A DNA stretch of 64,000 nucleotides from Patiria pectinifera (taxonomy: Eukaryota > Echinodermata > Asteroidea > Valvatida > Asterinidae), in the NCBI GenBank assembly GCA_029964075.1, contig CM057129.1, forward strand, positions 20,761,430 through 20,825,429, read 5' to 3'. The notes beneath the pieces are model-generated. The model saw only the letters and a list, made by a program, of their open reading frames with translations. It was not told the DNA's origin and did not search any database. Below are positions 16,782 through 64,000 of this stretch, piece after piece (within the stretch, counting starts at the first letter, position 1; the number at the start of each line of letters is the position of its first letter). The position numbers and the translations under genes were made by a program.

Positions 16782-17175
16782 CCAGGAGCGTCGGGGACGT
16801 CTTTATAGTCCGAAGTACCATTGGTCCGACGTCCCATTGGTCCGACGGTACGGCCCATTGCTCTATACGTTCCATTGGTATAAACGTCCGTTGGTCCGAC
16901 GTCCCATTGGTCCGACGTCCCATTGGTCCGACGTCCCATTGGTCCCGCACAGTACTATGTTTCGTCGGAGCAATGGGACTTCGGAGCAATGGGACTTCGG
17001 AGCAATGGGACGTCGGACCAATGGGACGTCGGACCAATGGGACTTCGGACCAATGGGACGTCGGACCAATGGGACGTCGGACCAATGGGACTTCGGACCA
17101 ATGGGACTTCGGACCAATGGGACTTTGGACTCGACCAATGGTACTTCGGACTATCGAGACGTAACCAGGAGCGTC
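16782..17175. mobile_element. Foldback element made of inverted 16-bp tandem units
   Basis: The right half is a tandem array of the 16-bp unit CGGACCAATGGGACGT. The left half carries the same unit inverted (CCCATTGGTCCGACGT). The outer ends are inverted copies of ATAGTCCGAAGTACCATTGG. An 11-bp direct repeat, CCAGGAGCGTC, lies at 16782-16792 and 17165-17175, in the position of a target duplication. Units vary at two sites (ACC/AGC and ACGT/ACTT). The overlapping open frames on both strands are translations of this repeat, not genes. Confidence 0.85.
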
Positions 17176-26800: not shown

Positions 26801-27457
26801 AATATTTATAAAGTTGACTCGAGGATTTGCACACAGAGGCCAAAACTCGCAGTTTCCAGATTGATTACGAACATCTTCAGGAGAATAAAAGCGGGCATAT
26901 GATGTACAACAGAACACAATGTTGCCAATCAGCCTGTCATCGGGACACTACTAATACCTGATGAAATATGGATTTGCCGCTGTTTGCCCTGGCCAGATTT
27001 ATACGCGCAAACAGTGCAACCGACTGGTTCATCACGTCAAACTGAAGTCGGCCGAGGCTCGCCGTACTCAACTACTGCGTGTGTTTACAATCATGTAGCT
27101 TAAAGGTAGACTAATAGGGGGAATTACTAGATTACAAAATGTAGGCCAAGCCGTGGGACTCCCTAATCTCTGTCAAAACACAAGGCCAATGCGATCCCTG
27201 GAAGGATGGTTACTTTTTGTCTGCGAAGTATGAAAATGTTGTTTGACGAGCGATTGGGTAAATTGTGTTTGCCTTTACGTTAGCCATGGTGAATTATCTA
27301 TCCTTATCAAAGCATGAAAATAAATGAAACACGAACATGACTTAAACTACTGCAAACTGCTTTATACTGACTGGATTGACTTGACATATCAGAAACGTTA
27401 GGTCAAACATTTCGATCATATAACAGGATCTTTGTCCAAGGCAATATATGCGCTCGT
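23880..27457. other. Intergenic, no gene recognised
   Basis: AT-rich with no convincing exon. An octamer-like ATGCAAAG sits in a mixed-composition patch at 24430-24480, which could be regulatory, but nothing else supports that. Confidence 0.4.
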
Positions 27458-28206
27458 GTTTCATTTCAACGGATACCAAAGTTTCATTTCAACTGATACC
27501 AATGTTTCATTTCAACTGATACCAACGTTTCATTTCAACTGATACCAACGTTTCATTTCAACTGATACCAATGTTTCATTTCAACTGATACCAATGTTTC
27601 ATTTCAACTGATACCAATGTCTCATTTCAACTGATACCAATGTTTCATTTCAACTGATACCAATGTCTCATTTCAACTGATACCAATGTTTCATTTCAAC
27701 TGATACCAATGTTTCATTTCAACTGATACCAATGTTTCATTTCAACTGATACCAATGTCTCATTTCAACTGATACCAATGTTTCATTTCAACTGATACCA
27801 ATGTCTCATTTCAACTGATACCAATGTCTCATTTCAACTGATACCAATGTTTCATTTCAACTGATACCAATGTTTCATTTCAACTGATACCAATGTTTCA
27901 TTTCAACTGATACCAATGTCTCATTTCAACTGATACCAATGTCTCATTTCAACTGATACCAATGTTTCATTTCAACTGATACCAATGTTTCATTTCAACT
28001 GATACCAATGTTTCATTTCAACTGATACAAATGTCTCATTTCAACTGATACCAATGTCTCATTTCAACTGATACCAATGTCTCATTTCAACTGATACCAA
28101 TGTCTCATTTCAACTGATACCAATGTCTCATTTCAACTGATACCAACGTTTCATTTCAACTGATACCAATGTCTCATTTCAACTGATACCAATGTCTCAT
28201 TTCAAC
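27458..28206. repeat. 23-bp minisatellite, 32 full units plus 13 bp
   Basis: The unit is GTTTCATTTCAACTGATACCAAT. Unit starts fall every 23 bp from 27458 to 28194 with no insertion or deletion. Variation is mainly T or C at the third base (GTT/GTC): 14 of 33 units, counting the partial one, carry C. A few units end AAC instead of AAT. The first and last units both read CAACGG where the inner ones read CAACTG. No open frame crosses it. Confidence 0.95.
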
Positions 28207-42706: not shown

Positions 42707-42712
42707 TTTATT
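42707..42712 (-). terminator. Polyadenylation signal AATAAA of the DUF4773 gene
   Basis: AATAAA on the minus strand, about 20 bp after the TAA stop at 42733-42735. This would give a very short 3' UTR. A second, more distal site cannot be excluded. Confidence 0.5.
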
Positions 42713-42732: not shown

Positions 42733-45693
42733 TTATTTCTCTTCATCGCGACCAGACGGGTAGGACTCCAGCACAATAGTCAAGGGAAAGTTCTCCGCAG
42801 AGAGCTCCCCGCCCATCATCAGCGGTCCAGTCAGCGTCTCAGTCACATCGCCAAGGTAAAGCAGACCCTCTGGAGTACGGGCATAGAGGGCTTGGTGCAG
42901 GGGGATCTTGAAGCAGCCCAGCTTCACCTTAGCCACGGTGTGACCGAAGAATTTGGCCTCCAGGCGGCCGCAGCCGCTGACGGCTTCCGTAGTCACGGCC
43001 AAGTCGTAGAGGGCGACGCACAACTTGCCGCCGGCCAGAGAAACGCAGATTGGGGGCGGGTCTTTCACTGCATGATACAAGAATATGCCAGCCAAACAAA
43101 AAGGCATTTGTCATAAAGTTATGAAGTTCAAAGTCCAATTTTAAGACATTTCTATAGGCGAGGCGACTTTCCTGAGTTACATGCTGTAGGCGAATCCTCA
43201 ATGAGCATCCGAGCCGATTCTCAGTGTCACACTGTACAACTATATATGCACAATGGGACTTTTCATCTTTAATCCGCACCACGAGCCCTGGTTTCAATAC
43301 TGATTTGAAATCCATCAATATCGTTCGCTAATTCGCAAAAACAAAATGACATCCACTTCCCCTCCTCCTGCATCTCGTCAAAAATGTTTCATAAATCTTT
43401 AATTGGTCAAATTCGTGCTACCATCGGTGCAGTAGTTGTCAGCAAATTCTATGTTACGAGAACATTGCAAGTATTGTTTTTGCAAGTAGAGGCTAATGAT
43501 AATTATTTCTTAAAATAAATTGCCATTATGTTGCTGTATTATATACATAGTGTAACTGATTTGTGTATCGCTGTTTGCAGTGAACAAGATGAATAATGTG
43601 ATCCCGCTCTTACTTTAAGAGCGTGCTGCTTAACGTTTCTACTTACGTGACAGAGTCTTCCTGAAGATGACTTTCCCATCGATGGTAAGGGTCAGAGACA
43701 CGCCGACAGCGGTGGACAAGAACTGGACTTGGATGCAAACTGCAGGGCACAAAAGAAGAGGGAGCAGGCAAAGCACAAAATAATCGGTGGTGTAACTTCA
43801 CAGTGGAAATTGCCCTGCCCCAATCCTGAAATCGTGTGCTTATCCGGGTTTAAGTGGTTAGCGAAATGGTCTGTTACCTCTTTTTGAAAGAGCCCTTATC
43901 CTTTACACATGAGCCTCATATACGTTGCCTTTGCGAACGCTTTTACGCTAGAAGTTCAATATGGTACGGTTTGATACAATGCAAATTATTAAAGAAGAAA
44001 ATCCATATGCATTTCGAAGGACATAGTTATGTATAGCCCCAACAGTCCTGAATCCTCCAATTTCAATATAGTTTTGCACACCCCCTGGGAAGTTAGGGAA
44101 TAAACAATTAAAATGCAAGGCTGGTCCTTTAAAACAAAGACTATTTCGCATCGTCGCTATGTAGACTATGGACCATAGACCCTACCGACCGGTGGCCCAA
44201 CCCATCGTAACATGGATTTAACAAAAAAACGACACTGCCAGGACTCGAACCTGGAATCCCCTGATCCGTAGTCAGATGCCTTATCCATTTGGCCACAGGG
44301 CCAGTTACAAACACACGGCACTTAATAAGATCAAGATGTTAAAAATACAGGTAAATAACTGCATTGTGCGGTGAGGCAGAGAGTTCGAGGGCAATGACGG
44401 GCATAAGGTCAAAAATGAGATTTTTTCATATTGTTAAAATATGTTCTTTTTCCTTTTGAGGTTCATTGGGTCGAAAAGTAGAAAACGGAGAAAATGGCCT
44501 CGAACGTCACAAAACAATTATTTCTTAAACAGATTCATCTAAACAAATCATCAAAAATACTATATTTAGAGTTCAAATTAGTGTTTCAAACTTTTATAGT
44601 ATATTTTAGACATGTTCAGGATTACAAATATGCAAAAATTTGAAAATCGAAAAAAATCACCCCACAGCGTTTTTTGGCCCTATCTCAATTTCAACCTCTG
44701 CCCAGAAGCGTCTACTTTTGACAAAACAGGTCATTATATCTTTTGGACATGCATGGGAGCAATTGCAGAATTCACCACCCGAAAAAATAACCCCAATAGT
44801 ACGGCAGATAGCTGGTGGTATGGTGACTGCTCTATGTTCCGACACCCCTATGTTCCAACACCCCTATGTTCCGACAACCTGCACATAAGATTGTGTTACT
44901 CCCGATTACACTGCAAAAACTGCAGTGTTAAATTTACACCATTGGTATCTATATAGGACCATCTAGTGTTAAATTTTACTGGTGTTGTCATATATAGATA
45001 CCGAATGGTGTTAAATTAACACCACAGTTTTTGCAGTGTAGGGTTAGAGTTAGGGTTAGGGATAGGAATAGGAATATGTGTAGTCGGAACATAGGGGTGT
45101 CGGAACATAGAGGTGTCGGAACACAGGGGTGTGGGAACATAGGTGTGTAACCGATGGGATTGTGCCTATTCTGATACAAGCGTGCAATTTAGCGCACAGT
45201 CAGAGTATGTCATGAGAAAGATATTAGGCTATAGGGCCATCGCAGATTTTTCCTTTGAACAAAAAAATAGGTAGAATAAGAAGCAATGGCAACCGTTTTT
45301 AAATGTTTTTAAAATTACTTGTTATTCTACCAACATTTTTTCAAAGGAGAAATCTGAGATGGCCCTATAGCCAAATATCTTTCTTGAGACATTCTCAAGA
45401 AAGTATGTATGCAGGTATCTCAGAGTGTTCTTTGTTGTACAAACGGTTTAACTTTCAAGTTCGCTTCCGAAGAACACCCATGAGGTATCTTCTAAGGACT
45501 ATAAAGACCTTGGAAGAGCTAAAACTCTAGCCCAGAATGTTTAAATCACCTGTGTCATCGATCTTGAGTTCCTTAATTTTGATGTGTTGACAGCATTCGC
45601 ATTGATCCTGAGAACAGGCGCAGGGGCCATTCACACCTCCGCTAGGTGACAGGTCCAACCATTCAGATATGCCTTGGGATTCCAGTAGAGACT
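42733..45693 (-). CDS. DUF4773 module 6, diverged C-terminal module (exons 17-19)
   Basis: Exons 45550-45693, 43647-43739 and 42733-43067, with the same 48- and 31-codon lengths and the same phases as the other modules. All ten cysteines are kept: CACSQDQCECCQ, VCIQ, PPPICV, KLCVA, GCGRL and LGCFK. Elsewhere only about half the residues agree. The NVT sequon is absent. The last exon continues about 50 residues beyond the domain and ends SYPSGRDEEK and TAA. The KDPPPICV sequence is closer to the usual family form than the NPDPVC of modules 1-5, so this may be the ancestral module. Confidence 0.88.
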
Positions 45694-48600
45694 CTAATAA
45701 AATGAATAAGAAAAAATGATATATGTATTACACATAGGCGTCATTGTGCCACCGTCTCTGTCCCCCCCCCCCCAAAAAAAAATCTCCAGAAAGCTTTGGC
45801 CGATCACGGATCCTGGACTTATTTGGTGACTTTTCCCTCACTTTTATCGGGGTCATTCCCTATAAAAAAAGGTATACATGCATTTTTATTGTGAGTCAAA
45901 ACCATGTTTTCCCTCAAGTATCCACTTTAGACTAAAATTCATGGTAACGTGACCAACTACAATACATGCTGGTTATCCAATATGGCTGCCGTTCGCGTGA
46001 AGAGAAGCTTTTAATTTCCACTTCTTCTGCATAAATGTCTTTGTTTGCCGATACTTTTTTTTTTACAGTTCTTGAATTCAAAACACTACCCATAAGTACT
46101 TCATGAGTGCCAATTTGATTGCAAAAAAAAAATCAATCAAATTTTGGGACAAAATTGCGAACAAAGATTAAAAGGGGCGCCATGGGGGGCACTTGCCCCC
46201 CCCCCCCCAAAGTGCCCCCCTTCCACCCCCCACAAAGTGCCCCCTATATGTGTCCCCTACAAAAAAAAAACCACGAAATTTGATGCTTGCCAAGGAAGGT
46301 TTTTTTTTTAATTTACTCAACTTCAATCCCCTTAATTCCCTTAACCCATGAACGGCTTTATGAAATGTGAACAAATTGGTAAGAAAAAAGAACATCCGCC
46401 TCTAGCGTCAAAAGAGGTTCCCCCCTCCCCCTTTGGATACTGACCCAAAGATGTTTGTATCAAATTTGAAAGCATTTTGAATGCAAAAATTGTAGAATAA
46501 TGCCCAAAATCCTGTTTGGGGAAAACTAGGGTCCAGCGCCCTTTTAATGTTGTGGACACCGCAGCGCAACCAAATTATGTCATCATATAAGTTCATGGCC
46601 ACGCAACATTCTTGTTAAATTTTAGGAAAATCAGCCGCCGCATTTGGAAATTAGGATTGGGCACAATCCCCCCCTCCCCATCGGTCCTGAGAAGACCCTC
46701 TGTACTGATGCATTAAACTCTCAATTCTCAGCTAAGGACAGCAACATTTCACCACACAGAATTCCCCCAAACAAGTCATTCGATCTCTTGTGAATGGTCC
46801 ACATATTCATTCCGTCAAAAATACATAGTCTCACTCGATCTTTCCCTTTCACAATACATCTTACAGAGTTGTAAGAAGAACAGTACGTTTGCTTTCACCC
46901 TTGGTATGAAGCCCGGGAAGGGACAGGGTGGATTTTTTTTTGGAGTTTGCTAATTCGTTCGCACGAATTCCTAATTCGTTCGCACGAATTACTAATTCGT
47001 TCGCACGAATTAGTAATTCGTTCGCACGAATTAGTACTTCTTGGGAACGAATTAGTAATTCGTTCGCACGAATTAGTAATTCGTGCGAACGAATTAGGAA
47101 ATTCCAAAAAAAAAAATCCACCCTGTCCCTTCCCGGGCTTCATACTTGAAAGAAGAGAATGTGCATTTTTTCCCCGGTGGAGCACTAGAGGTATTTCCAT
47201 AATAGCTGGAGGTTTTAATCAGGTGACAATCAGGTGACTACAAAGTCATCTGGCAAAAATATCTAGCTAACGTACTCGCAGCTGATGTAGAATCTTGTGC
47301 AACCAAAGTATACAGTTTTGTTTATCGAAAGAGACAAAAGACGAAATACGATCCTCTCGTGGTGTGAAAACAAAGAAAATACGATTAAGGTTTTAGTTTC
47401 ATGTAACTGTATTTCTTAATCTGTTACTCGGTATCGACCGATCCTCAATTTTAACAAAAGAGAAAGTTGCCTGCCAAACTGTTGTGAAATAAAACAGATG
47501 TCAAACATGTGCATGCCTTTGACTCGAAAAGGGTACTCGAATCAATTGATTTTTTTTGTTTAATTTACTTGGATATTTAATTTGTCTTTATTTAGCTGCA
47601 TTTAATGAGCTACACTGATAGTATCTTCCTGTAAAATGAAAATAAGATATTGACAGACCTTTGTTTGAAAAACTATTGTCATATTTATTATTCAGGAGAC
47701 TGAAAGTTTTCATACTAGTGCCAATTATGCCCGGTGTCAAGACAATGTGTTTTATAGCCCATTTGGACAACTTGTACACCTGTGAATCAATCGGTCTCTC
47801 CTTATTAAACGAAGACATTTTCCACCGTAGAAGGTTACAAGAAATTTACACTTATGAAATTCAAAATCCGGAGTCTGTTCTAACCTTGATTGGTCTTTTT
47901 GAAGGGCATCTTGAAGCAGCCCAAGTCGACCGTGGCCACTGTCTTGTCCAGGATCTTGCCTTCCAGTCGGGCGCATGCGTCGAATTCTTCCGGTGATACC
48001 GACAACTTGTACAACTCGCCGCAGATCTCCGCGCCAAACTTCCCATGGAATTTCACGCAGACCGGATCGGGATTTTTAACTGTGACATAGATGAATAAAA
48101 ATCATCTCTCTTACAGTATCTGACAACACGACAGCCTTTTACAACATAATTTTCAAGTGTTGAATCTGTTGCTTCATTAATTTAAAGTACTCTTACCTGA
48201 CACAGTTTTCTCGAAGAGGACTTTCCCGCCGAAGGAGAGGGACAACTTGGCGCCGATTTGCTCAGAGAGGAAAGTCACATTGGCACAAGCTGCAGTACAT
48301 AAATTAAGGGGGGGGGGTCATTATTTATTTATTTAGAAATAAAAAGACTGCATTCAATGTTAAATTCAATGAAGCAAAATAGTTTGCACTCGAGTGATTT
48401 CAATCAAACCGAACAATTTTCCTTAAAACGTCTGGTCCTTACAGCATTAGTTGGTGAAGGAGTTAAATATTTGCTTTTCTGTAAAAAGAAGTAACTAATA
48501 CCAGTACCAGATTTATTTTGTTTTTACGAAGGCAGGTTTGAACTTTTTATCCTCAGATCACGTAGAACAACATTGATAACAAAATTGTTGAAGTCCGACT

Positions 48601-50560
48601 TTCTCCGTATGTTCAAAATTCTTCTAAATGACCCCATGTGCACGAACATCATTTCACTAGGCTGAAGTACAAATCATGTCTTCTTAATTCACGGTTTTCT
48701 CATTTTGGGAGATATAGGGAAAACAAAAGATTCCATCAGACCTTAAAATATCTGTTGCGAAATACCAGAGGGTGGCGTACCGTTTGTGTTGATTCCTAGC
48801 TCGGGAATCTTGACTGGTTGACAGCATCCGCACTCCTTGCCTTGACACGTGCAGGGAGGAGCACCCACCAACGACCGGCCTTCTGACAGGTCCGACCATG
48901 CTACTTCGTCGCTTTTGACTTGGTCTGCAAAGACAATGGATAAAAGAGATACCTAAATTATACAATACTAATAATATTAGATTAAAATTGTATTTCTGCA
49001 CGGTCTTCATCAAAATGATAAATCGCGCATAATGTACCACAGAAATTAACATAAAAAAGCAAGAACTAAAACAAATAAATTCCAATGTTTAAAAGAGGTT
49101 AAGAAGTAAGTACATCTCAAATGTCTATCAGGGCAATCAAACTAAAAATTCACTGATACATAAGCAACAAAATTAGTTAAAAGCCAGTTTAAAAAGATAG
49201 GACCTATAAAGTCTTAACTTTACGCTTAAAAAACTCAATGGACTGAGAAGGTCGGAAACTGATTGAACGCTTCTGGGGCTGCGGATGAAAAGGGTCTACT
49301 CGCCCCAGCGTTTTTCATTCTGCACTTAGGAATTCCACACACTTTTTCGGTGGAAAATATAATATCCAGCTGCCGTGGTGTATATTACACCGGGGAGTTT
49401 AAAGGGTCATATTTGTACACTACGCGCAACTGACTATTTTCGTCATACTTTCTTCCATGGTTTACAAGTGACCTGCCATAGCATAATGAGGAAAAAAAAA
49501 CACCTGTGACTTTTCAAGTAATACTTCTTGTTCAAGCGCAAATCATTGGCTTTCCAATGACACCGAATCTATTTCTGCAGCTTAATTTATTCCAAAGATA
49601 CACAACAGGAACGTCAACAGTGTCCCACCAAACTTCGCCGACCTGATTTCGAGAAATACGACTTCGAAAAAAAGATACGCATTGCGCCGCCAAAGGCATT
49701 GAACAAGTTCTTCAGTTTGTCCACTTTAGGGGTTATTTTTCACCACCAAAAATACATAGTGTGAATATTGTTTACCTTGGCTACTCAAAAATAAAAAAAC
49801 TCAAGATTCATTTTGACAGGATTTTCGTAGTAGCCTATATCCGACTTTAAGCGTTACTCAAAACAAGGTTTCGGGGGACATTCCTCATTTTGCCACAGTA
49901 GGTCATTTAAATCCATCACAACTGATGAGTTCTCTTTAGATTTGAGATTTTAATATTATTTCACATCAGTCACATCTTCTTTTGAACGAGGTATGGTCCT
50001 TTGATGGCTCTAAAAAGGTTACAAGTGAAATCATTCTTAATTCATTATTAAACAAAGACTTTTTTCACAGCAGGAGATTACAAGAAATTTACATTGATGA
50101 CATTCAAAAATCCGGAGTCTGTGCTAACCTTGATTGGTCTTTTTGAAGGGCATCTTGAAGCAGCCCAAGTCGACCGTGGCCACTGTCTTGTCCAGGATCT
50201 TGCCTTCCAGTCGGGCGCATGCGTCGAATTCTTCCGGTGATACCGACAACTTGTACAACTCGCCGCAGATCTCCGCGCCAAACTTCCCATGGAATTTCAC
50301 GCAGACCGGATCGGGATTTTTAACTGTGACATAGATAAATAAAAATCATCTCTCTTACAGTATCTGACAACACGACAGCCTTTTACAACATAATTTTCAA
50401 GTGTTGAATCCGTTGCTTCATTAATTTAAAGTACTCTTACCTGACACAGTTTTTTCGAAGAGGACTTTCCCGCCGAAGGAGAGGGACAACTTGGCGCCGA
50501 TTTGCTCAGAGAGGAAAGTCACATTGGCACAAGCTGCAGTACATAAATTAAGGGGGGGTC

Positions 50561-50600
<40 letters not shown>

Positions 50601-53600
50601 GAAAAAAAAGACTGCATTCAATGTTAAATTCAATGAAGCAAATTAGTTTGCACTCGAGTGATTTCAATCAAACCGAACAATTTTCCTTCTAAAACGTCTG
50701 GTCCTTAATACTGTTTTAGTTGGTGAAAGAGTTAAATATTTGCTTTTCTGTAAAAAGAAGTAACTAAGGCCAAAACAAAAAAAAGTGTCCAGTTGCTGGT
50801 ATGCGCGTCGCCTTAGCCATGCGCGTCGGCAAAATGAATTTTTTTTTCAATGAACCGCCAAACTCACTGGTTTGACTGGAATCCTGCTGCTGCACAATTT
50901 TAACGTGTTTTTAGATGGGGTTATGATCGAGAATAAGCTTTATGTGGCCTCTCTGGACTCCCATATATTTGCACTAAGTCTAGTCGGGCACCATTTGCAG
51001 TCATCAGCCTACATTTTGAGGCAAAGAAAATCAGGTAAAAAAAAACAAAAAGCCGCGTCGCCGCACCACTTTTTGGGCAAGCTCCATACCAGAAACCGGA
51101 GACTTATTTTTTTGGGCCTAATACCAGTACCAGATTTATTTTGTTTTTACGAAGGCAGGTTCGACCTTTTTATCCTCAGATCACGTAGAACAACCTTGAT
51201 AACAAAATTGTTAAAGTCCGACTTTCTCCGTATGTTCAAAATTCTTTTAAATGACCCCATGTGCACGAACATCATTTCACCAGGCTGAAGTACAAATCAT
51301 GTCTTCTTAATTCAAGGTTTTCTCATTTTGGGAGATATAGGGAAAACAAAAGATTCCATCAGACCTTAAAATATCTGTTGCGAAATACCAGAGGGTGGCG
51401 TACCGTTTGTGTTGATTCCTAGCTCGGGAATCTTGACTGGTTGACAGCATCCGCACTCCTTGCCTTGACACGTGCAGGGAGGAGCACCCACCAACGACCG
51501 GCCTTCTGACAGGTCCGACCATGCTACCTCGTCGCTTTTGACTTGGTCTGCAAAGACAATGGATAAAAGAGATACCTAAATTATACAATACTAATAATAT
51601 TAATTTAAAATTGTATTTCTGCACGGTCTTCATCAAAATGATAAATCGCGCATAATGTACCACAAAAATTAACATAAAAAAGCAAGAACTAAAACGAATA
51701 AATTCCAATGTTTAAAAGAGGTTAAGAAGTAAGTACATCTCAAATGTCTATCAGGGCAATCAAACTAAAAATACACTGATACATAAGCAACAAAATTAGT
51801 TAAAAGCCAGTTTAAAAAGATAGGACCTATAAAGTCTATACTTTACGCTTAAAAATCTCAATAGACTGAGAAGGTAGGAAACTGATTGAACGCTTCTGGG
51901 GCTGCGGATGAAAAGGGTCTACTCGCCCCAGCGTTTTTCATTCTGCACTTAGGAATTCCACACACTTTTTCGGTGGAAAATATAATATCCAGCTGCCGTG
52001 GTGTATATTACACCGGGGAGTTTAAAGGGTCATATTTGTACACTACGCGCAACTGACTATTTTCGTCATACTTTCTTCCATGGTTTACAAGTGACCTGCC
52101 ATAGCATAATGAGGAAAAAAAAACACCTGTGACTTTTCAAGTAATACTTCTTGTTCAAGCGCAAATCATTGGCTTTCCAATGACACCGAATCTATTTCTG
52201 CAGCTTAATTTATTCCAAAGATACACAACAGGAACGTCAACAGTGTCCCACCAAACTTCGCCGACCTGATTTCGAGAAATACGACTTCGAAAAAAAGATA
52301 CGCATTGCGCCGCCAAAGGCATTGAACAAGTTCTTCAGTTTGTCCACTTTAGGGGTTATTTTTCACCACCAAAAATACATAGTGTGAATATTGTTTACCT
52401 TGGCTACTCAAAAATAAAAAAACTCAAGATTCATTTTGACAGGATTTTCGTAGTAGCCTATATCCGACTTTAAGCGTTACTCAAAACAAGGTTTCGGGGG
52501 ACATTCCTCATTTTGCCACAGTAGGTCATTTAAATCCATCACAACTGATGAGTTCTCTTTAGATTTGAGATTTTAATATTATTTCACATCAGTCACATCT
52601 TCTTTTGAACGAGGTATGGTCCTTTGATGGCTCTAAAAAGGTTACAAGTGAAATCATTCTTAATTCATTATTAAACAAAGACTTTTTTCACAGCAGGAGA
52701 TTACAAGAAATTTACATTGATGACATTCAAAAATCCGGAGTCTGTTCTAACCTTGATTGGTCTTTTTGAAGGGCATCTTGAAGCAGCCCAAGTCGACCGT
52801 GGCCACTGTCTTGTCCAGGATCTTGCCTTCCAGTCGGGTGCATGCGTCGAATTCTTCAGGTGATACCGACAACTTGTACAACTCGCCGCAGATCTCCGCG
52901 CCAAACTTCCCATGGAATTTCACGCAGACCGGATCGGGATTTTTAACTGTGACATAGATAAATAAAAATCATCTCTCTTACAGTATCTGACAACACGACA
53001 GCCTTTTACAACATAATTTGCAAGTTTTGAATCCATTGCTTCATTAATTTAAAGTACTCTTACCTGACACAGTTTTCTCGAAGAGGACTTTCCCGCCGAA
53101 GGAGAGGGACAACTTGGCGCCGATTTGCTCAGAGAGGAAAGTCACATTGGCACAAGCTGCAGTACATAAATAAAGGGGGGGGGGTCATTATTTATTTATT
53201 TAGAAATAAAAAGACTGCATTCAATGTTAAATTCAATGAAGCAAAATAGTTTGCACTCGAGTGATTTCAATCAAACCGAACAATTTTCCTTAAAACGTCT
53301 GGTCCTTACAGTTTTAGTTGGTGAAGGAGTTAAATATTTGCTTTTCTGTAAAAAGAAGTAACTAATACCAGTACCAGATTTATTTTGTTTTTACGAAGGC
53401 AGGTTTGAACTTTTTATCCTCAGATCACGTAGAACAACATTGATAACAAAATTGTTGAAGTCCGACTTTCTCCGTATGTTCAAAATTCTTCTAAATGACC
53501 CCATGTGCACGAACATCATTTCACCAGGCTGAAGTACAAATCATGTCTTCTTAATTCACGGTTTCTCATTTTGGGAGATATAGGGAAAACAAAAAATTCC

Positions 53601-56600
53601 ATCAGACCTTAAAATATCTGTTGCGAAATACCAGAGGGTGGCGTACCGTTTGTGTTGATTCCTAGCTCGGGAATCTTGACTGGTTGACAGCATCCGCACT
53701 CCTTGCCTTGACACGTGCAGGGAGGAGCACCCACCAACGACCGGCCTTCTGACAGGTCCGACCATGCTACCTCGTCACTTTTGACTTTGTCTGCAAAGAC
53801 AATGGATAAAAGAGATACCTAAATTATACAATACTAATAATATTAATTTAAAATTGTATTTCTGCACGGTCTTCATCAAAATGATAAATCGCGCATAATG
53901 TACCACAGAAATTAACATAAAAAAGCAAGAACTAAAACAAATAAATTCCAATGTTTAAAAGAGGTTAAGAAGTAAGTACATCTCAAATGTCTATCAGGAC
54001 AATCAAACTAAAAATTCACTGATACATAAGCAACAAAATTAGTTTAAAGCCAGTTTAAAAAGATAGGGCCTATAAAGTCTTAACATTACGCTTAAAAATC
54101 TCAATAGACTGAGAAGGTAGGAAACTGATTTAACGCTTCTGGGGCTGCGGATGAAAAGGGTCTACTCGCCCCAGCGTTTTTCATTCTGCACTTAGGAATT
54201 CCACACACTTTTTCGGTGGAAAATATAATATCCAGCTGCCGTGGTGTATATTACACCGGGGAGTTTAAAGGGTCATATTTGTACACTACGCGCAACTGAC
54301 TATTTTCGTCATACTTTCTTCCATGGTTTACAAGTGACCTGCCATAGCATAATGAGGAAAAAACACCTGTGACTTTTCAAGTAATACTTCTTGTTCAAGC
54401 GCAAATCATTGGCTTTCCAATGACACCGAATCTATTTCTGCAGCTTAATTTATTCCAAAGATACACAACAGGAACGTCAACAGTGTCCCACCAAACTTCG
54501 CCGACCTGATTTCGAGAAATACGACTTCGAAAAAAAGATACGCATTGCGCCGCCAAAGGCATTGAACAAGTTCTTCAGTTTGTCCACTTTAGGGGTTATT
54601 TTTCACCACCAAAAATACATAGTGTGAATATTGTTTACCTTGGCTACTCAAAAATAAAAAAACTCAAGATTCATTTTGACAGGATTTTCGTAGTAGCCTA
54701 TATCCGACTTTAAGCGTTACTCAAAACAAGGTTTCGGGGGACATTCCTCATTTTGCCACAGTAGGTCATTTAAATCCATCACAACTGATGAGTTCTCTTT
54801 AGATTTGAGATTTTAATATTATTTCACATCAGTCACATCTTCTTTTGAACGAGGTATGGTCCTTTGATGGCTCTAAAAAGGTTACAAGTGAAATCATTCT
54901 TAATTCATTATTAAACAAAGACTTTTTTCACAGCAGGAGATTACAAGAAATTTACATTGATGACATTCAAAAATCCGGAGTCTGTTCTAACCTTGATTGG
55001 TCTTTTTGAAGGGCATCTTGAAGCAGCCCAAGTCGACCGTGGCCACTGTCTTGTCCAGGATCTTGCCTTCCAGTCGGGTGCATGCGTCGAATTCTTCAGG
55101 TGATACCGACAACTTGTACAACTCGCCGCAGATCTCCGCGCCAAACTTCCCATGGAATTTCACGCAGACCGGATCGGGATTTTTAACTGTGACATAGATA
55201 AATAAAAATCATCTCTCTTACAGTATCTGACAACACGACAGCCTTTTACAACATAATTTGCAAGTTTTGAATCCATTGCTTCATTAATTTAAAGTACTCT
55301 TACCTGACACAGTTTTCTCGAAGAGGACTTTCCCGCCGAAGGAGAGGGACAACTTGGCGCCGATTTGCTCAGAGAGGAAAGTCACATTGGCACAAGCTGC
55401 AGTACATAAATAAAGGGGGGGGGTCATTATTTATTTATTTAGAAATAAAAAGACTGCATTCAATGTTAAATTCAATGAAGCAAAATAGTTTGCACTCGAG
55501 TGATTTCAATCAAACCGAACAATTTTCCTTAAAACGTCTGGTCCTTACAGTTTTAGTTGGTGAAGGAGTTAAATATTTGCTTTTCTGTAAAAAGAAGTAA
55601 CTAATACCAGTACCAGATTTATTTTGTTTTTACGAAGGCAGGTTTGAACTTTTTATCCTCAGATCACGTAGAACAACATTGATAACAAAATTGTTGAAGT
55701 CCGACTTTCTCCGTATGTTCAAAATTCTTCTAAATGACCCCATGTGCACGAACATCATTTCACCAGGCTGAAGTACAAATCATGTCTTCTTAATTCACGG
55801 TTTTCTCATTTTGGGAGATATAGGGAAAACAAAAGATTCCATCAGACCTTAAAATATCTGTTGCGAAATACCAGAGGGTGGCGTACCGTTTGTGTTGATT
55901 CCTAGCTCGGGAATCTTGACTGGTTGACAGCATCCGCACTCCTTGCCTTGACACGTGCAGGGAGGAGCACCCACCAACGACCGGCCTTCTGACAGGTCCG
56001 ACCATGCTACCTCGTCACTTTTGACTTTGTCTGCAAAGACAATGGATAAAAGAGATACCTAAATTATACAATACTAATAATATTAATTTAAAATTGTATT
56101 TCTGCACGGTCTTCATCAAAATGATAAATCGCGCATAATGTACCACAGAAATTAACATAAAAAAGCAAGAACTAAAACAAATAAATTCCAATGTTTAAAA
56201 GAGGTTAAGAAGTAAGTACATCTCAAATGTCTATCAGGACAATCAAACTAAAAATTCACTGATACATAAGCAACAAAATTAGTTTAAAGCCAGTTTAAAA
56301 AGATAGGGCCTATAAAGTCTTAACATTACGCTTAAAAATCTCAATAGACTGAGAAGGTAGGAAACTGATTTAACGCTTCTGGGGCTGCGGATGAAAAGGG
56401 TCTACTCGCCCCAGCGTTTTTCATTCTGCACTTAGGAATTCCACACACTTTTTCGGTGGAAAATATAATATCCAGCTGCCGTGGTGTATATTACACCGGG
56501 GAGTTTAAAGGGTCATATTTGTACACTACGCGCAACTGACTATTTTCGTCATACTTTCTTCCATGGTTTACAAGTGACCTGCCATAGCATAATGAGGAAA

Positions 56601-59600
56601 AAAAAACACCTGTGACTTTTCAAGTAATACTTCTTGTTCAAGCGCAAATCATTGGCTTTCCAATGACACCGAATCTATTTCTGCAGCTTAATTTATTCCA
56701 AAGATACACAACAGGAACGTCAACAGTGTCCCACCAAACTTCGCCGACCTGATTTCGAGAAATACGACTTCGAAAAAAAGATACGCATTGCGCCGCCAAA
56801 GGCATTGAACAAGTTCTTCAGTTTGTCCACTTTAGGGGTTATTTTTCACCACCAAAAATACATAGTGTGAATATTGTTTACCTTGGCTACTCAAAAATAA
56901 AAAAACTCAAGATTCATTTTGACAGGATTTTCGTAGTAGCCTATATCCGACTTTAAGCGTTACTCAAAACAAGGTTTCGGGGGACATTCCTCATTTTGCC
57001 ACAGTAGGTCATTTAAATCCATCACAACTGATGAGTTCTCTTTAGATTTGAGATTTTAATATTATTTCACATCAGTCACATCTTCTTTTGAACGAGGTAT
57101 GGTCCTTTGATGGCTCTAAAAAGGTTACAAGTGAAATCATTCTTAATTCATTATTAAACAAAGACTTTTTTCACAGCAGGAGATTACAAGAAATTTACAT
57201 TGATGACATTCAAAAATCCGGAGTCTGTGCTAACCTTGATTGGTCTTTTTGAAGGGCATCTTGAAGCAGCCCAAGTCGACCGTGGCCACTGTCTTGTCCA
57301 GGATCTTGCCTTCCAGTCGGGCGCATGCGTCGAATTCTTCCGGTGATACCGACAACTTGTACAACTCGCCGCAGATCTCCGCGCCAAACTTCCCATGGAA
57401 TTTCACGCAGACCGGATCGGGATTTTTAACTGTGACATAGATAAATAAAAATCATCTCTCTTACAGTATCTGACAACACGACAGCCTTTTACAACATAAT
57501 TTTCAAGTGTTGAATCCGTTGCTTCATTAATTTAAAGTACTCTTACCTGACACAGTTTTCTCGAAGAGGACTTTCCCGCCGAAGGAGAGGGACAACTTGG
57601 CGCCGATTTGCTCAGAGAGGAAAGTCACATTGGCACAAGCTGCAGTACATAAATAAAGGGGGGGGGGTCATTATTTATTTATTTAGAAATAAAAAGACTG
57701 CATTCAATGTTAAATTCAATGAAGCAAAATAGTTTGCACTCGAGTGATTTCAATCAAACCGAACAATTTTCCTTAAAACGTCTGGTCCTTACAGCATTAG
57801 TTGGTGAAGGAGTTAAATATTTGCTTTTCTGTAAAAAGAAGTAACTAATACCAGTACCAGATTTATTTTGTTTTTACGAAGGCAGGTTTGAACTTTTTAT
57901 CCTCAGATCACGTAGAACAACATTGATAACAAAATTGTTGAAGTCCGACTTTCTCCGTATGTTCAAAATTCTTCTAAATGACCCCATGTGCACGAACATC
58001 ATTTCACTAGGCTGAAGTACAAATCATGTCTTCTTAATTCACGGTTTTCTCATTTTGGGAGATATAGGGAAAACAAAAGATTCCATCAGACCTTAAATAG
58101 CTGTTGCGAAATACCAGAGGGTCGCGTACCGTTTGTGTTGATTCCTAGCTCGGGAATCTTGACTGGTTGACAGCATCCGCACTCCTTGCCTTGACACGTG
58201 CAGGGAGGAGCACCCACCAACGACCGGCCTTCTGACAGGTCCGACCATGCTACCTCGTCGCTTTTGACTTGGTCTGCAAAAACAATGGATAAAAGAGATA
58301 CCTAAATTATACAATAATAATACTAATAATAATGCATTACAATTTGTGTTGCGCGGTCTTCATAAAAATGATCAATCTCGCATTACATTATGTTCCACAG
58401 AAATTAACATTTAAATAGCAAGAATTAAAACAACTTAAATCTAATGTTTAAAAGAGGTTAAGAAGTAAATAAATGTCTATCAGGACAATCAAACTAAAAA
58501 TACACTGATACATAAGCAATGAAATTAGTTGAAAACCTGTTCAAAAAGAGCGTTTTTAATATTCTACACTGAGGATTTTCCAAACACATGTCCAGCTGGT
58601 GTGGTGTAGTCTTTTTACACTGCACGAAACGGACCATTTTCGTTATACTTTCTTCCATGTGTATATTAATTAATCCATACCAACTGATGATAAGTTCTCT
58701 TTAGATTTCAGATTTTAACATTGTTTCACATCAGTTACAACTTCTTTTGCAAGAGGTATGACCTTTGATGGCTTTAAAAAAGGTTAAAGTGAAATCACTG
58801 TTATTTCAACTGTCTAAATTTTGTATAAATTTTTTAAAAATGCCTCAAATATGAAACGTCACCATGCCAGATTTCAAGTCAAGAACCAATTTTTATTTGC
58901 TGAAATACGACCCCAACAAAAATATTATTTATTACTAGATTTGATTTGTTTTTATTTCCGTAAATCAAAAATGAACTTTTCTATCAAGGAAATAAAAAAA
59001 AGTTTATTTGAAAGTGCTTTGTTAGAAAAGTCACCCATATCTTTTATATTATTGGTTTACTTTTTTTCTCTGTTGCTTTTCTCGGAGAGTATACAATACA
59101 ATAACTAGTGATGTCAACCACTGCGCACTTGACTTGTTCGGAACCGTGTGATCAGTTACGGTATTTGCATTATTGCGAAATTTCGTTACTTCCTTGTTGG
59201 AGGTAATACCGTGCCAATTAATTGAATTCGTAGAAGGAAATCAAAGTTTCAGTGGCCGAGTTGCTCACTGTCTCAATTTCAAGGCCACGGTACTTTATAA
59301 GCCAATAATTGAAAGTGCACCGTTTTGGTTCCTATACTGTGATTACTTGTCAACACTGGGGACGATGAACCAGCAGCTTGGGAAATGACGAAGGTGGTGG
59401 ATGGGGGGATGTGAATGGAAGAGTGGTGGGGTTTGGGCGGGAGGGGGGGGGGGAGGAGCTTGACCAAATCTGACTCCCGGGGCACTGTTCGATCATGTTC
59501 TGTAAATGAACATGTTCCTTTTACACCCAGTGCTGCATGTATTACCATCAAAGAGCGAACAATAATTCAGAACCTTTGCACAAAATGATTTTGAATAATT

Positions 59601-62600
59601 TTGGTGCAGATTTAAAATGTATGCAATCGTGTTCTGGGATAAAATATGGCGTATGGGGAGATATATCGCGTTTTGGCGCTTTCGGAAAAGGCGGGGGCAG
59701 ACACCCCCTCCCCGATCGCCGCCCAGGGTTGAAGGTAACATGAGAACTGCAGCGAGCTTGTCTGCTTCGCCTCCGGGCTTTGGCTATCGACGTAAAGACG
59801 CCTTGTTGCTAGAACCTGTCTGTGTCTATCAGTGGGGGCGGACGGAATAAACCTGCAGTAGACAGCGGCGTAAAGATTCGGGGAGGGGTGCATCAGTAAA
59901 GGGGGCACTAATGGCATGCAATGAAACGTGTCATCTCAACCGTGCAGTAGGCCCTATATTTGTTTTCAATTCAAAATTTCATAAGGGGAACATGGGGAGG
60001 AGGTGGATATCCGCTCGGGTAGGACGTGCCACGCGTGCCCCGAGTGAAAACACGTAATACACGTTAGAAATAACAACACCAAGTACACGATATAAATCCA
60101 TTTCCTGCTAATTGCAGTTTCGAATCAGGATTATGATCAGGATACAGGAAGCAAGTTTGCATCCCAGGCAGGGGCGGCGGAACCGGGGGGCGGGGGGGGC
60201 ACTTGCCCGCCCCCCAGATTTACCCACGTACCCCTCTTGCGGACATAAATGTGGCCCCTCGAGCATAAATCTGCCCCCTCGAACTGAAAATAAAACTGGT
60301 CCTAAAATTGCAGATAATTTTATTCAGTAACCATTTCCCAAAATGTAATAGAGAGTTCTGATTATGAACGAGGAATATGAAAACAAGCCCCCAAACCGTA
60401 ACATAATGCGTAGTTAATGGTCGGTTTTGAAGAGCGCCCCCCCCCCCCCCCCCAGGCAAAATGTCCGGTGAAAAAAAACCGTGTCGACATTTCAGCACGG
60501 ATGTGTCCCCCCCCCCCTAAAAAAATGCAAGATACGCTGCTGCACCGACGGAAGATGACTGTCTTTTACTCAGCAAGTGGCCCTTTTTGGTGATCCCCCC
60601 CCCCCGCAAGTTTGAAAGCCGTTCCGCCGCCGCTGATTCCAGGGCTTACTATGGAAACGAGGTTGAAAATATAGTAAGCCCTGGGGACGAGGTTGACACT
60701 TGAGATTATTTCTGCTAATGTTACGCAAAAAACACTGCAACTGTTTTAACCCATTTTTTTTTAACAGTGCAGGCAATATTTAAATGTCATTTGATTATTA
60801 TTGTTAATAGACAATTAGATATACATTCTATTAAAAAGAAAAGTTTTCACCTCATCCATCAGAATAAGAATGTAATTGTACAGTGCAGGCCTGTAAACGA
60901 ACCTTTCCGACAAAGGTCACTGATTCGCAATATCGAAACAAGAAAACTGTTTCCTCGTTTGCTTTCCGAACCTTTCCGACAAAGGTCACTGATTCGCAAT
61001 ATCGAAACAAGAAAACTGTTTCCTCGTTTGCTTTTTCCGAGAATGAAAGAAGAGGCTTGATATTTATTTACCCAAATAATCCTGGTTGCAGTTTCCGTCA
61101 CTGACTGCGTACGTGCAGGCCTCAGCCAGGGTACGTGCAGATGATGTGATTCACTGCAATGGGCCTTATGCACGAGTCAGCCATATTGAATTGAATTTGA
61201 ATGTGAGCTAAAGTCTTCATTTTTGGAACTTGCGAAGTGAAATGAAAGCAAGTAAATTACTAATTAATTCAAGTATACTTCAATGAATAATTTAAAATTT
61301 GTAATTAAACATTCCGTAATGTTTTATGCCAGATTTAAACAAAAATACACATAAAATAAGGCTGCATAAATAGTCTGGCGCCATCCCATTCAAAGTTGAC
61401 AATTTATGAAATACATTCAGGGGACTCAACAAAAATGGCCAACTCGTGCATCAGGCCAATTTGGTGCACTTTTACTGGGTGTCAAAAGGCAGTGGTTTGG
61501 GAATTTCCACGGTGAATTGATTTGTTTGAATTTTCAGAAATCTCTGTGTGATTATTTTTTTCTTGGCAGTGATCATGAAGAGGTCCTGCATACACTATGA
61601 TAATCTGACGTTCTTAAGTTGCCAAACTGCTTTCAAGATTTTCATTCTTAGACAAAGAAATCTCATAGGCTACATCCAAAAATATCATAGGCTACACCCA
61701 ACTGGTCCTTTTAGAGTGGATGTTGCGTCGGCCAATTTAATATCGAAATAATTTTCCAAAACTAATTGTTTTTTCCAAATGATCTTAGAATTGATTTTGT
61801 TAATTCCTCCAGAAAGCTATTTTGACGTCGCTATACCGAACAGCGCTTTGCCGAACATTCGGCTATACCGAACATCATCCTTGGCTCCCGGTTTTAATGT
61901 GCAAACGTACTGAACATCATTGCTGAAAGAAGTCAACAGATGAACATAAAATCTACCGGTTGTATATTAAACGGTATCTGGGCCACTTTTAATTCCCGAA
62001 CAACAAGCGACCCATAGTTACATCGTGCTTGAATTTTGAAGAGCGATAGATGGCTATTTTTCCCCCAAGAAATATAAGGGAAACCATCCGTTGCTAAAGT
62101 TTTGTGATGACTCCTCGCGCAGCCGGGGGATGTGAGAAATCATGCCATTTCACTAGCTATTGGTCAAAAGTGGGTACCGGCGGTTCAAAATCCCTACACT
62201 GAACGATTTTTGATACGTACACTTTCTGTGGATCCCGCGATGTTCTTCATAGCGGTGTTCCACTGAACTAGCTTGTGCTCCCCTCCCCTCTTAGTTAACT
62301 TGATTTGATTTGATTTATTTTCTTTTATCATAAATATTTCAAATAAACGTGATGAACGGTGGAGGCTGGAAGAAAGCCGAAGCTTGTACTTGGCCAAGCC
62401 CCCGTGAGTAAACAATTGAAATTGAACACGAACAAATAATTAAACTTCAATAAACATTTAGGCCAACTATACGAAGTAGCTACATCAAAAAATATGTAGC
62501 GATAATATTAACACAATAATAACACATGAAGAAGGATCGTGCCGGTTCTAGCCGTAATATCTCTTTAGCTGTTATCACTATATACCTAGTTACTGGTCAC

Positions 62601-63467
62601 CTGACCAAAAGTCGTGATCCAGTTGGTTAATGCTGACCAATTGATGACGGCAGGAATTTATGGGAAAGAAAAAAGACAGTAAGAAGAGGTTTATATTATT
62701 TGAAACTGTGATCGAATCAGCCCCTACTTCACTGGTAAACCGCACACATGACTTGCTAAAACCACGCATACAGTCCCGAGCACATTATGGTTTTCAAACC
62801 CTATACAGGGATAGAATTAAGGATCTTGGTTTCGTACTTCGGATGTCAGTATTAGGAATCAAATTTTGCACCTCTTTTATATATTCCCATATTGTCTGTA
62901 TAACAATCTACAGTGGGAAAAAAACTCACTTGTAAAATTTGCATGCACTGTATCTTTACCCTAAAAGGGCCGGTTATTTTGACCATCTCACAGCCGGGGG
63001 ACGATTTTTTTTTTCTCCCAAACGACATCCGCATAATTATGGTAGTACGCTATGGCGTTTTGATGAAAATAAAAAACGAGAAAAAAAGGAATTCGAACGT
63101 TTTGAAATTCGGATTTTGTTTCCCTTTTTAAAAAAATAGAAGCGCTAACCAGCAAACCAGTTCGCCCAGATTTGTCTATAAATTATTCTAGGACAGACCG
63201 CTCTGGTCCTGGTAGTAACCGGGGGTTTTTTTTGGGGGGGGGGGTATCTTTCAAGAATGTGTGAAGCTAATATGTAAACTTTGATCCTTCTCTATTATCT
63301 CGACAACCATTTACACAGAAACTGACTTCTGAAGAAAAAAATGAGGCAACAAACTTACTGGTTTGCGACATGCGCAGAACCGACGAGTCGTAGTCAGGAG
63401 GCAAGGCGACTGTGCTATGAAGGATAGCAAGGGCGGTGGCAAGGAACATGGCCACAAAGTGCGTCAT
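42733..63467 (-). CDS. Secreted protein with six tandem DUF4773 modules, 19 coding exons
   Basis: Exons in transcript order: 63359-63467; 58130-58273, 57547-57639, 57235-57429; 55887-56030, 55304-55396, 54992-55186; 53647-53790, 53064-53156, 52752-52946; 51404-51547, 50441-50533, 50129-50323; 48781-48924, 48197-48289, 47885-48079; 45550-45693, 43647-43739, 42733-43067. They sum to 2841 bp, 946 residues plus stop. Every intron is GT-AG and phase 1, so any module can be added or lost in frame. Exon 1 is a signal peptide. Each module has ten cysteines: CxCxxxxCxCC, then single cysteines in NAC, PVC, EIC, DAC and LGCF, the order I know from DUF4773 proteins of insects and other animals. Function of that family is unknown; secretion is inferred from the signal peptide. 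No membrane anchor is seen after it. Confidence 0.88.
44230..44302 (-). tRNA. tRNA-Arg (ACG)
   Basis: 73 nt on the minus strand. D arm TGGCCAAATGGATAAGGC, anticodon loop CTACGGA with anticodon ACG in a TCTGA/TCAGG stem, and T arm CCAGGTTCGAGTCCTGG. The acceptor stem GGCCCTG/CAGTGTC pairs with one G-U and one C-U mismatch. Seven T residues follow directly, a normal RNA polymerase III terminator. ACG would be edited to ICG to read CGU, CGC and CGA. It lies inside an intron of the DUF4773 gene on the same strand. The one acceptor mismatch leaves a small chance of a pseudogene. Confidence 0.88.
44831..45150. repeat. Inverted CTATGTTCC/GGAACATAG repeat with TTAGGG runs (copy 2 of the 20640 family)
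   Basis: The left side has three CTATGTTCCGACACCC-like units, the right side four inverted GGAACATAGGGGTGTC-like units. Short TTAGGG runs lie at 45041-45060. A separate MITE (44909-45038) has inserted between the arms. Confidence 0.7.
44909..45038. mobile_element. 130-bp MITE with CACTGCAAAAACTG ends and TA duplication
   Basis: Perfect inverted termini CACTGCAAAAACTG; inverted similarity continues inward through GTGTTAAATTTACACC and GGTATCTATATA. TA flanks both ends (44907-44908 and 45039-45040). Typical small Tc1/mariner-type MITE. Confidence 0.8.
45694..47884. other. DUF4773 gene intron between exons 16 and 17
   Basis: Contains poly-C/poly-A tracts at 45762-45780, a GGGGGCACTTGCCCCC-type repeat near 46183-46210, and the foldback at 46904-47145. 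The last 100 bp resembles the other module spacers. No coding exon was found. Confidence 0.55.
46904..47145. mobile_element. 242-bp foldback with ATTCGTTCGCACGAAT core
   Basis: Inverted ends GTATGAAGCCCGGGAAGGG, continuing through ACAGGGTGGATTTTTTTT, on both sides; a TTG direct repeat flanks it. The core repeats the self-complementary word ATTCGTTCGCACGAAT about every 21 bp. The open frames on both strands here (IRSHEL/ARITNS-like repeats) are artefacts of this core. Confidence 0.85.
47885..48924 (-). CDS. DUF4773 module 5 (exons 14-16)
   Basis: Exons 48781-48924, 48197-48289, 47885-48079. Protein as in modules 1 and 4. Downstream (below 47885) the similarity to the other module spacers fades within about 100 bp, marking the edge of the recently amplified array. 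Confidence 0.88.
50129..51547 (-). CDS. DUF4773 module 4 (exons 11-13), intron enlarged by an insertion
   Basis: Exons 51404-51547, 50441-50533, 50129-50323. Protein as in module 1 (Q and DACARL). The intron between exons a and b is about 380 bp longer than in the other modules: a 352-bp insertion at 50767-51118 plus an expanded ATTT microsatellite at 50561-50599. The splice sites are intact. Confidence 0.88.
50767..51118. mobile_element. 352-bp insertion in module 4 intron
   Basis: Present only in unit 4; the empty site in units 1, 2, 3 and 5 reads AACTAATACCAG. Ends AGGCCAAAAC and TTTTTTTGGGCC are inverted. A TA (or CTA) duplication is consistent with the empty sites. Includes GCGCGTCG-type words at both ends. 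The frame at 50872-51288 crosses it and is not supported as a gene. Confidence 0.75.
52752..53790 (-). CDS. DUF4773 module 3 (exons 8-10)
   Basis: Exons 53647-53790, 53064-53156, 52752-52946. Same residues as module 2, including K in the linker and DACTRL, and the same intron variants (for example TTTGCAAGTTTTGAATCCATTG between exons b and c reads alike in both). This points to duplication or gene conversion between 2 and 3. Confidence 0.88.
54992..56030 (-). CDS. DUF4773 module 2 (exons 5-7)
   Basis: Exons 55887-56030, 55304-55396, 54992-55186; 144 residues. It differs from module 1 in my reading at two residues only: K for Q at the second residue of the linker, and DACTRL for DACARL in exon c. 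Several synonymous differences accompany these. Indistinguishable at protein level from module 3. Confidence 0.88.
57235..58273 (-). CDS. DUF4773 module 1 (exons 2-4)
   Basis: Exons 58130-58273 (48 codons), 57547-57639 (31) and 57235-57429 (65). Exon a encodes an acidic linker with AWSDLSEG, then CTCQGKECGCCQ; exon b NACANVTFL (an N-glycosylation sequon, NVT) to FEKTVS; exon c NPDPVCVKFHGKFGAEIC to LGCFKMPF. Reads Q after the linker start and DACARL near the end, as modules 4 and 5 do. Confidence 0.88.
58274..58840. repeat. Diverged spacer remnant upstream of module 1
   Basis: Matches the inter-module spacer in order (ACACTGATACATAAGCAA, TTTCGTTATACTTTCTTCCA, AGTTCTCTTTAGATTT, GATGGCTTTAAAAAAGG) but is much more diverged and lacks a long middle part. 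It stops about 70 bp before an exon c would be expected, and none is there. Confidence 0.7.
60165..60640. mobile_element. GC-rich element with GGCGGCGGAAC ends
   Basis: GGGGCGGCGGAACCGGGG at the left and inverted GCGGCGGCGGAACGGC at the right bracket about 475 bp holding long C and G runs. The GGGGGCACTTGCC word also occurs near 46183, so this is a dispersed family. Boundaries approximate. Confidence 0.45.
60898..61035. repeat. Exact 69-bp tandem duplication
   Basis: Two consecutive copies of a 69-bp unit beginning CGAACCTTTCCGACAAAGG and ending GCTTTC. No difference was seen between the two. The duplicated reading frames in this region are its by-product. Confidence 0.9.
61140..61440. repeat. 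Dispersed repeat, copy 2
   Basis: Same orientation and block order as 41140-41620 but without the internal 200-bp segment found there. No coding function seen. Confidence 0.6.
63359..63467 (-). CDS. DUF4773 gene exon 1, signal peptide
   Basis: 36 codons plus one base, from ATG at 63465-63467 to a GTAAGT donor. The hydrophobic run FVAMFLATALAIL is followed by HSTVALPPDYD, with a plausible signal-peptidase site near STVA. The reading frame is open further upstream but only to a GTG, so this ATG is the first possible start in the exon. It ends phase 1 like all later exons. Confidence 0.85.
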
Positions 63468-63572
63468 TCTCGAAGTTTGGGTGTGAACAACAACACAGCA
63501 CACGGAACAATCACCGTTGAGAGCTTTCTTTGGAGTCCTCGCTGCTCAATGCCGAGTTATGGGTACGCCTGC

Positions 63573-63581
63573 CTTTTTATA
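63573..63581 (-). promoter_or_regulatory. TATA box of the DUF4773 gene
   Basis: TATAAAAAG on the minus strand, about 105 bp before the signal-peptide ATG. Transcription would then start near 63545-63552 with a 5' UTR of about 80 bp. Position and strand fit the gene well; usage is inferred. Confidence 0.55.
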
Positions 63582-64000
63582 TGAACATGGCAAACTTCCA
63601 ATTCCGTAAATGGATATTCTTGGGGTTTCCCATGTTTACACGGCTTTACACACATCGCGCAGAATGAGGAAGTAAAACTGACTGGTCATGATCGGATTTC
63701 GACATGAGGAACAAAAGTTTATTTCTTCCTTCTAATAAGCATATGCAGTGAAGGCCGGTGTCACATGAAAATCCGACTCCTATGAAAATCTGACCCCTAA
63801 TTTCCCTATTATTGGTTGATCCCTCGCACGTGACAGGTCACTCTCCCGAAACGATCCTAAAATAGCATAGTATATGCGGATTTGCGTGCGAACGTTCGTG
63901 CGAAACGTGATAGACCGTAAATGTTTTTGTTTGTATTATTTCATTCGCCATCATTGTGGTGGCAGGCCTTAATGGTTCGGAGAGTCACGAAAGCTTATAA
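63582..64000. other. Upstream flank of the DUF4773 gene, no gene seen
   Basis: Contains AAAATCCGACTCCTATGAAAATCTGACCCC, a short direct duplication of ATGAAAATC[CT]GAC near 63765-63800, and a palindrome-like CGAACGTTCG near 63890. Regulatory sites are expected here but none can be named. Confidence 0.4.

Follow-up and report, generated by a model that had tools for sequence, protein, structure and literature searches.

Class 1-1 module shuffling and tandem module genes are known in animal extracellular proteins. The gene that we analysed resembles them in duplicating symmetric phase-1 modules within a predicted secreted protein; it differs from them in that its module is split into three symmetric exons and in that its family is uncharacterised. 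This family is DUF4773 (Pfam PF15998), whose profile the protein fits but of which it carries six copies in one protein. The gene is a six-domain member of the family, built by recent in-frame duplication.

DUF4773 proteins are little studied. They have been named among the skin mucus proteins of the octopus (PMC11431876), among the most abundant upregulated transcripts of locust pleuropodia (PMC6966819) and, in the oyster, among the markers of hemocyte cluster 1, identified as macrophage-like cells (PMC12064177). The parts of these papers available to us point to secretory or immune settings, and the available parts of the literature naming DUF4773 give no function or activity for it. No multi-module DUF4773 protein was found in the literature, which is a weak statement, as the protein databases and most of the subscription literature were outside our reach. 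The gene presented here is a lead on this family, though it is a fairly ordinary module duplication. Its five near-identical modules and one divergent module, together with the single-module relatives, form a natural series for domain binding and for the effect of repetition.

Structure of the six-module gene

The gene was rebuilt from the sequence of the window (the whole stretch of 64,000 nucleotides of Patiria pectinifera DNA that was analysed). It lies on the minus strand, from an ATG at 63467 to a stop codon ending at 42733, and has 19 coding exons, a CDS of 2841 nt including the stop and a product of 946 residues. The first exon, of 109 bases, is followed by five sets of 144 + 93 + 195 bases and then by a last set of 144 + 93 + 335 bases, so that modules 1 to 5 have 144 residues each and module 6 has 190 with its tail.

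Exon 1 of the gene (63359..63467), which was found both in the rebuilt gene and in the signal-exon scan, comprises the ATG, the predicted signal peptide and a short linker (36 codons and one base). The three exons of each module, all on the minus strand, are located at 58130..58273, 57547..57639 and 57235..57429 for module 1, at 55887..56030, 55304..55396 and 54992..55186 for module 2, at 53647..53790, 53064..53156 and 52752..52946 for module 3, at 51404..51547, 50441..50533 and 50129..50323 for module 4, and at 48781..48924, 48197..48289 and 47885..48079 for module 5. Those of module 6 are located at 45550..45693, 43647..43739 and 42733..43067, the last one including the C-terminal tail and the stop codon TAA.

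The splice sites, predicted from the sequence, have GT-AG ends and are in phase 1 in 18 of 18 introns, and phase-1 introns bound all of the module exons, as in symmetric modules of class 1-1. In modules 1 to 5, the donor of exon 1 (GTACGC) scores 1.39 and is predicted to be weak, the remaining donors scoring from 2.82 to 7.01 on a simple donor matrix with hand-set weights. The preliminary description of this DNA had proposed 19 exons with all introns in phase 1, encoding a signal peptide and six modules with ten cysteines each in the same order; the rebuilt gene confirmed both the exons and the cysteines (60 in total).

Family assignment and number of modules

The assignment to DUF4773, which had also been made in that description, was borne out by hmmscan of the 946-residue protein, since the family matched it six times, with 525.2 bits against a curated cut-off of 27 bits (E 2.5e-160). 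Modules 4 and 6 scanned alone scored 99.1 and 93.1 bits, respectively, each match covering positions 1-114 of the 118 of the profile. Four other Pfam families (STAT1_TAZ2bind, Metallothio_Euk, Flt3_lig and MobC_2) gave weak matches with the whole protein, which we took as repeat artefacts because they were absent when modules 4 and 6 were scanned alone. NCBIfam gave no match for these two modules. The search of solved structures found no sequence relative, with only near-chance matches (E 2.1 and 0.25), and scans of prokaryote and virus contigs confirmed no relative, a weak negative, each scan using one short peptide pattern.

Profiles of the module exons were made from modules 4 and 6 of the window, and they therefore test the number of modules and the role of chance rather than family membership. 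They matched 6, 6 and 6 open frames in the window at 15 bits or more for exons 1, 2 and 3, with lowest scores of 102.9, 76.5 and 125.8, respectively, and the next best frame of the window scored 9.9. No extra or decayed module beyond these six of each exon was found in the window at this threshold. In the random control, consisting of ten dinucleotide-Markov sequences, none of the 30,034 frames reached 15 bits and the best scored 12.5.

Ends of the gene

The pattern scan of both strands showed that a candidate TATA box, TATAAAAAGG (63572..63581, minus strand), is located 114 bases before the ATG and occurs exactly once in the window. A candidate polyadenylation signal, AATAAA, is present just past the stop codon (42707..42712, minus strand). 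On the gene strand between 42400 and 63359, AATAAA or ATTAAA occurs 53 times, this copy included, so that early 3' ends and shorter transcripts are possible.

The signal-exon scan sought exons that start with an ATG, encode a hydrophobic N-terminus and end in a phase-1 donor. On the minus strand, the region upstream of module 1 (58300-64000) contained a single signal-peptide exon candidate of this kind, the one at 63467; the other row of the scan was an internal ATG within this same exon, and the plus strand gave no candidate between 58300 and 63700. The cut-offs had been relaxed after a stricter first pass gave zero candidates upstream of module 1. With the relaxed scan (donor score 2.5), the whole window contained six candidates on the minus strand and three on the plus strand, and the rarity of such an exon is thus only moderate. 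When the donor score was lowered to 1.0 inside the array, three first-exon-like frames were found, each overlapping module exons. The sole upstream signal exon, the TATA box and the AATAAA after the stop codon make one gene the natural reading.

Cysteines and character of the predicted protein

The ten cysteines are at positions 25, 27, 32, 34, 35, 50, 87, 99, 115 and 134 of modules 1 to 5 and at positions 25, 27, 32, 34, 35, 50, 87, 96, 112 and 131 of module 6. Alignment of five modules from this one genome, two from the window gene and three from relatives on contig C17, showed that eight cysteines are invariant and that two further ones, located in exon 1, are present only in the window gene. 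The even number of cysteines per module and the presence of eight of the ten in the three single-module relatives fit disulfides inside the modules rather than cross-links, which suggests that the predicted cysteines pair within modules.

Each of modules 1 to 5 has one N-glycosylation site (NVT), five in all. The N-terminus of the product is hydrophobic according to hydropathy and no membrane anchor is evident by eye, and the product looks like a secreted protein with a predicted signal peptide. The fold predicted for exon 3 of module 6 alone was of low confidence (mean pLDDT 45.4), with every element a strand, and was considered too poor to be compared with known folds.

Single-module relatives on contig C17

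The family and module searches found seven other places with a DUF4773 exon 3 in the genome, all of them on contig C17 (near 3.284, 3.295, 3.418, 3.433, 3.497, 14.52 and 15.36 Mb), and no further exon 3 was found at a meaningful score in the stretches around these places. The exons were read one by one at three of these places (3.418, 3.433 and 15.36 Mb), and the remaining four were judged on similarity or on exon 3 alone. Each of the three has one module in three exons, whose phase-1 boundaries match those of the window gene, and ends with a stop codon right after the last cysteine motif, and their joined modules matched DUF4773 with 66.5, 68.2 and 76.8 bits, respectively.

These single-module genes are like the window gene in the three-exon phase-1 layout and in the eight cysteines, but they stop after one module, are 31 to 35% identical to module 4 and have three cysteines in exon 1 (C-x8-CC) instead of five. 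The symmetric three-exon module, put forward earlier for the window gene, is indeed present there but is not novel to it, since the three relatives already have it and, in the genes read here, it is the usual layout of the family. What is novel is the tandem expansion inside one gene.

Near-identical copy groups (L038, L043, L044; L039, L041) lie on both strands of contig C17 within 0.22 Mb (3.28-3.50 Mb). The peptides of exons 2 and 3 are identical among the copies near 3.284, 3.433 and 3.497 Mb, whose DNA is 97 to 99% identical over kilobases, and the 3.295 Mb copy likewise shares its peptides of these two exons with the 3.418 Mb copy. In exon 1, the 3.284 and 3.433 Mb copies do not differ, whereas that of the 3.497 Mb copy (L044) diverges (62 of 107 bases in an ungapped match) and the cysteine motif is readable in no frame of that strand, so that this copy may be damaged or misassembled. 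The groups may reflect either recent segmental duplication or an assembly matter.

History of the tandem array

We defined the repeat unit as the segment running from the exon 1 of one module to that of the following module; unit 5 was measured only to position 47800. Comparison of units 1 to 5, introns included, showed identities of 97.15 to 99.51% in 10 of 10 pairs. The four full-length units differ pairwise by 11 to 34 substitutions, and units 2 and 3, which differ at 11 of 2239 aligned sites, have identical exons. Among modules 1 to 5, 6 of 432 exon columns are variable, and the variable intron columns number 19 of 487 and 5 of 117 in the first two introns and 16 of 1201 in the third, which was compared among four units. 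There is too little change among the copies for selection on modules 1 to 5 to be proved. Comparison of module 6 with module 4 gave 60 shared residues out of 139, a dS of about 1.0 and a dN of about 0.54, with 10 of 10 cysteines kept; judged from its sequence, module 6 is old compared with units 1 to 5.

Intron 1 of module 4 carries a MITE-like insertion (50768..51121, minus strand), about 350 bases long, whose ends are inverted (GGCC...) and which has TTAG at both sides. It is confined to unit 4, the site being empty in the other four units, which indicates that the copies are real and evolve separately rather than being produced by the assembly.

Elsewhere in the 613.5 Mb assembly, the search listed no module of the window type except for a weak exon-1-like stretch on contig C14 (E 0.59). 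This isolated stretch, GSSLVCAPLCTCKG, lies near 39.00 Mb (L050 5423-5608, minus strand) and scores 18.7 bits. No match of note to exon 2 or exon 3 was found near it within the 10 kb read, and it is perhaps the relic of a module copy.

Proposed function and alternative explanations

We propose that one promoter and one 3' end would define a single gene for a secreted protein with six consecutive DUF4773 domains. A block made of three exons and the following intron (about 2.24 kb) would have been duplicated within the gene by unequal crossing-over, several times and recently, each duplication keeping the frame because all introns are in phase 1. Gene structure, duplication history and secretion, taken as one joint reading, appear probable to us, and the module growth seen in the window gene looks like an early stage of the process. 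The product would enter the secretory route, each domain would fold as a small disulfide-knit unit, probably beta-rich, and modules 1 to 5 would each present their NVT site. Outside the cell, the protein may bind a ligand (glycan, lipid or protein) multivalently, and the setting that we propose is mucus, body fluid or immune secretions, in which avidity would rise with repetition. The best reading of the product is a secreted, multivalent, disulfide-rich glycoprotein, whose function we infer. The multivalent secreted binder is the likeliest single role, followed by a structural secretion, and we put it forward tentatively. That the number of domains is still growing and may vary between individuals, the self-compatible three-exon unit yielding a length-tunable multivalent extracellular effector in an unstudied domain family, is a reading that we consider rather unlikely.

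Tandem near-identical repeats joined to secretion are typical of structural secretions. As the repeats are present here and secretion is predicted, the protein could instead be a structural polymer, the cysteine-cross-linked repeat block of mucus, cuticle or extracellular matrix, and the available parts of the papers on octopus skin mucus and on the abundant transcripts of locust pleuropodia (PMC11431876, PMC6966819) are in keeping with this. However, no spare cysteine is evident in the modules, the even cysteine number argues mildly against a cross-linked polymer, and inspection of the 946 residues by eye revealed no low-complexity, collagen-like or Ser/Thr-rich stretch; we consider such a polymer unlikely, though not greatly so. 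The preliminary description had spoken of a polymer built by module duplication, possibly serving as matrix, cuticle, mucus or binding protein. Phase-1 module duplication and a secreted, extracellular protein were supported, the latter by the one signal-peptide exon and hydropathy only, whereas the polymer was not supported, given the even cysteines and the eight of ten common to the relatives, and neither was a matrix, cuticle or mucus role. Another explanation is that the gene yields a set of proteins of varied length by module skipping or early polyadenylation, six modules being the longest form. Either process would keep the frame because every module exon is in phase 1, and the weak exon-1 donors and the many internal AATAAA and ATTAAA hexamers also favor it, but such hexamers are common at about 60% AT, and we regard the set as a doubtful possibility. 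These alternatives are compatible with each other and with the gene structure.

The two other explanations concern the array itself. A smaller array inflated by the assembler would account for the identical exons and the few differences of units 2 and 3, but it agrees poorly with the 11 to 34 substitutions between full-length units, with the insertion present in unit 4 alone, and with a genome-wide search that listed such a module nowhere else except for the weak contig C14 stretch; we regard it as very improbable. Dead remnants or individual genes that are not spliced together could also be imagined, as the splicing is predicted from the sequence and the array contains the three first-exon-like frames with looser donors, all of which overlap module exons. 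However, the exons of all six modules are open, each module retains its splice ends and its ten cysteines, and the single TATA box has no second copy in the window, which makes separate or dead modules extremely improbable.

Other features of the window

Ten open frames, out of 23 of at least 110 residues, were scanned for neighboring genes and gave no Pfam match. COX1 was not found in the assembly, although the search detected it in 8 control genomes; mollusc haemocyanin, Chitin_bind_4 and GFP families were not matched either, but these searches also gave nothing in the controls, and their negatives carry no weight. A tRNA-Arg (ACG) gene is predicted in intron 1 of module 6 (44229-44303, minus strand; 54.9 bits, Rfam). 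At least 31 matches to tRNA-Arg (ACG) were found genome-wide, and 27 of those listed are located in tandem clusters on contig C19 (21.38-21.40 Mb), with a spacing of about 162 bases.

The window also contains several minisatellites. One array consists of 32.6 copies of a 23-base unit (27457-28206), and two facing 16-base arrays in opposite orientation are located at 16808-17130. A palindromic 21-base unit is repeated seven times at 46951-47097, and a perfect 69-base unit is present twice at 60898-61034.
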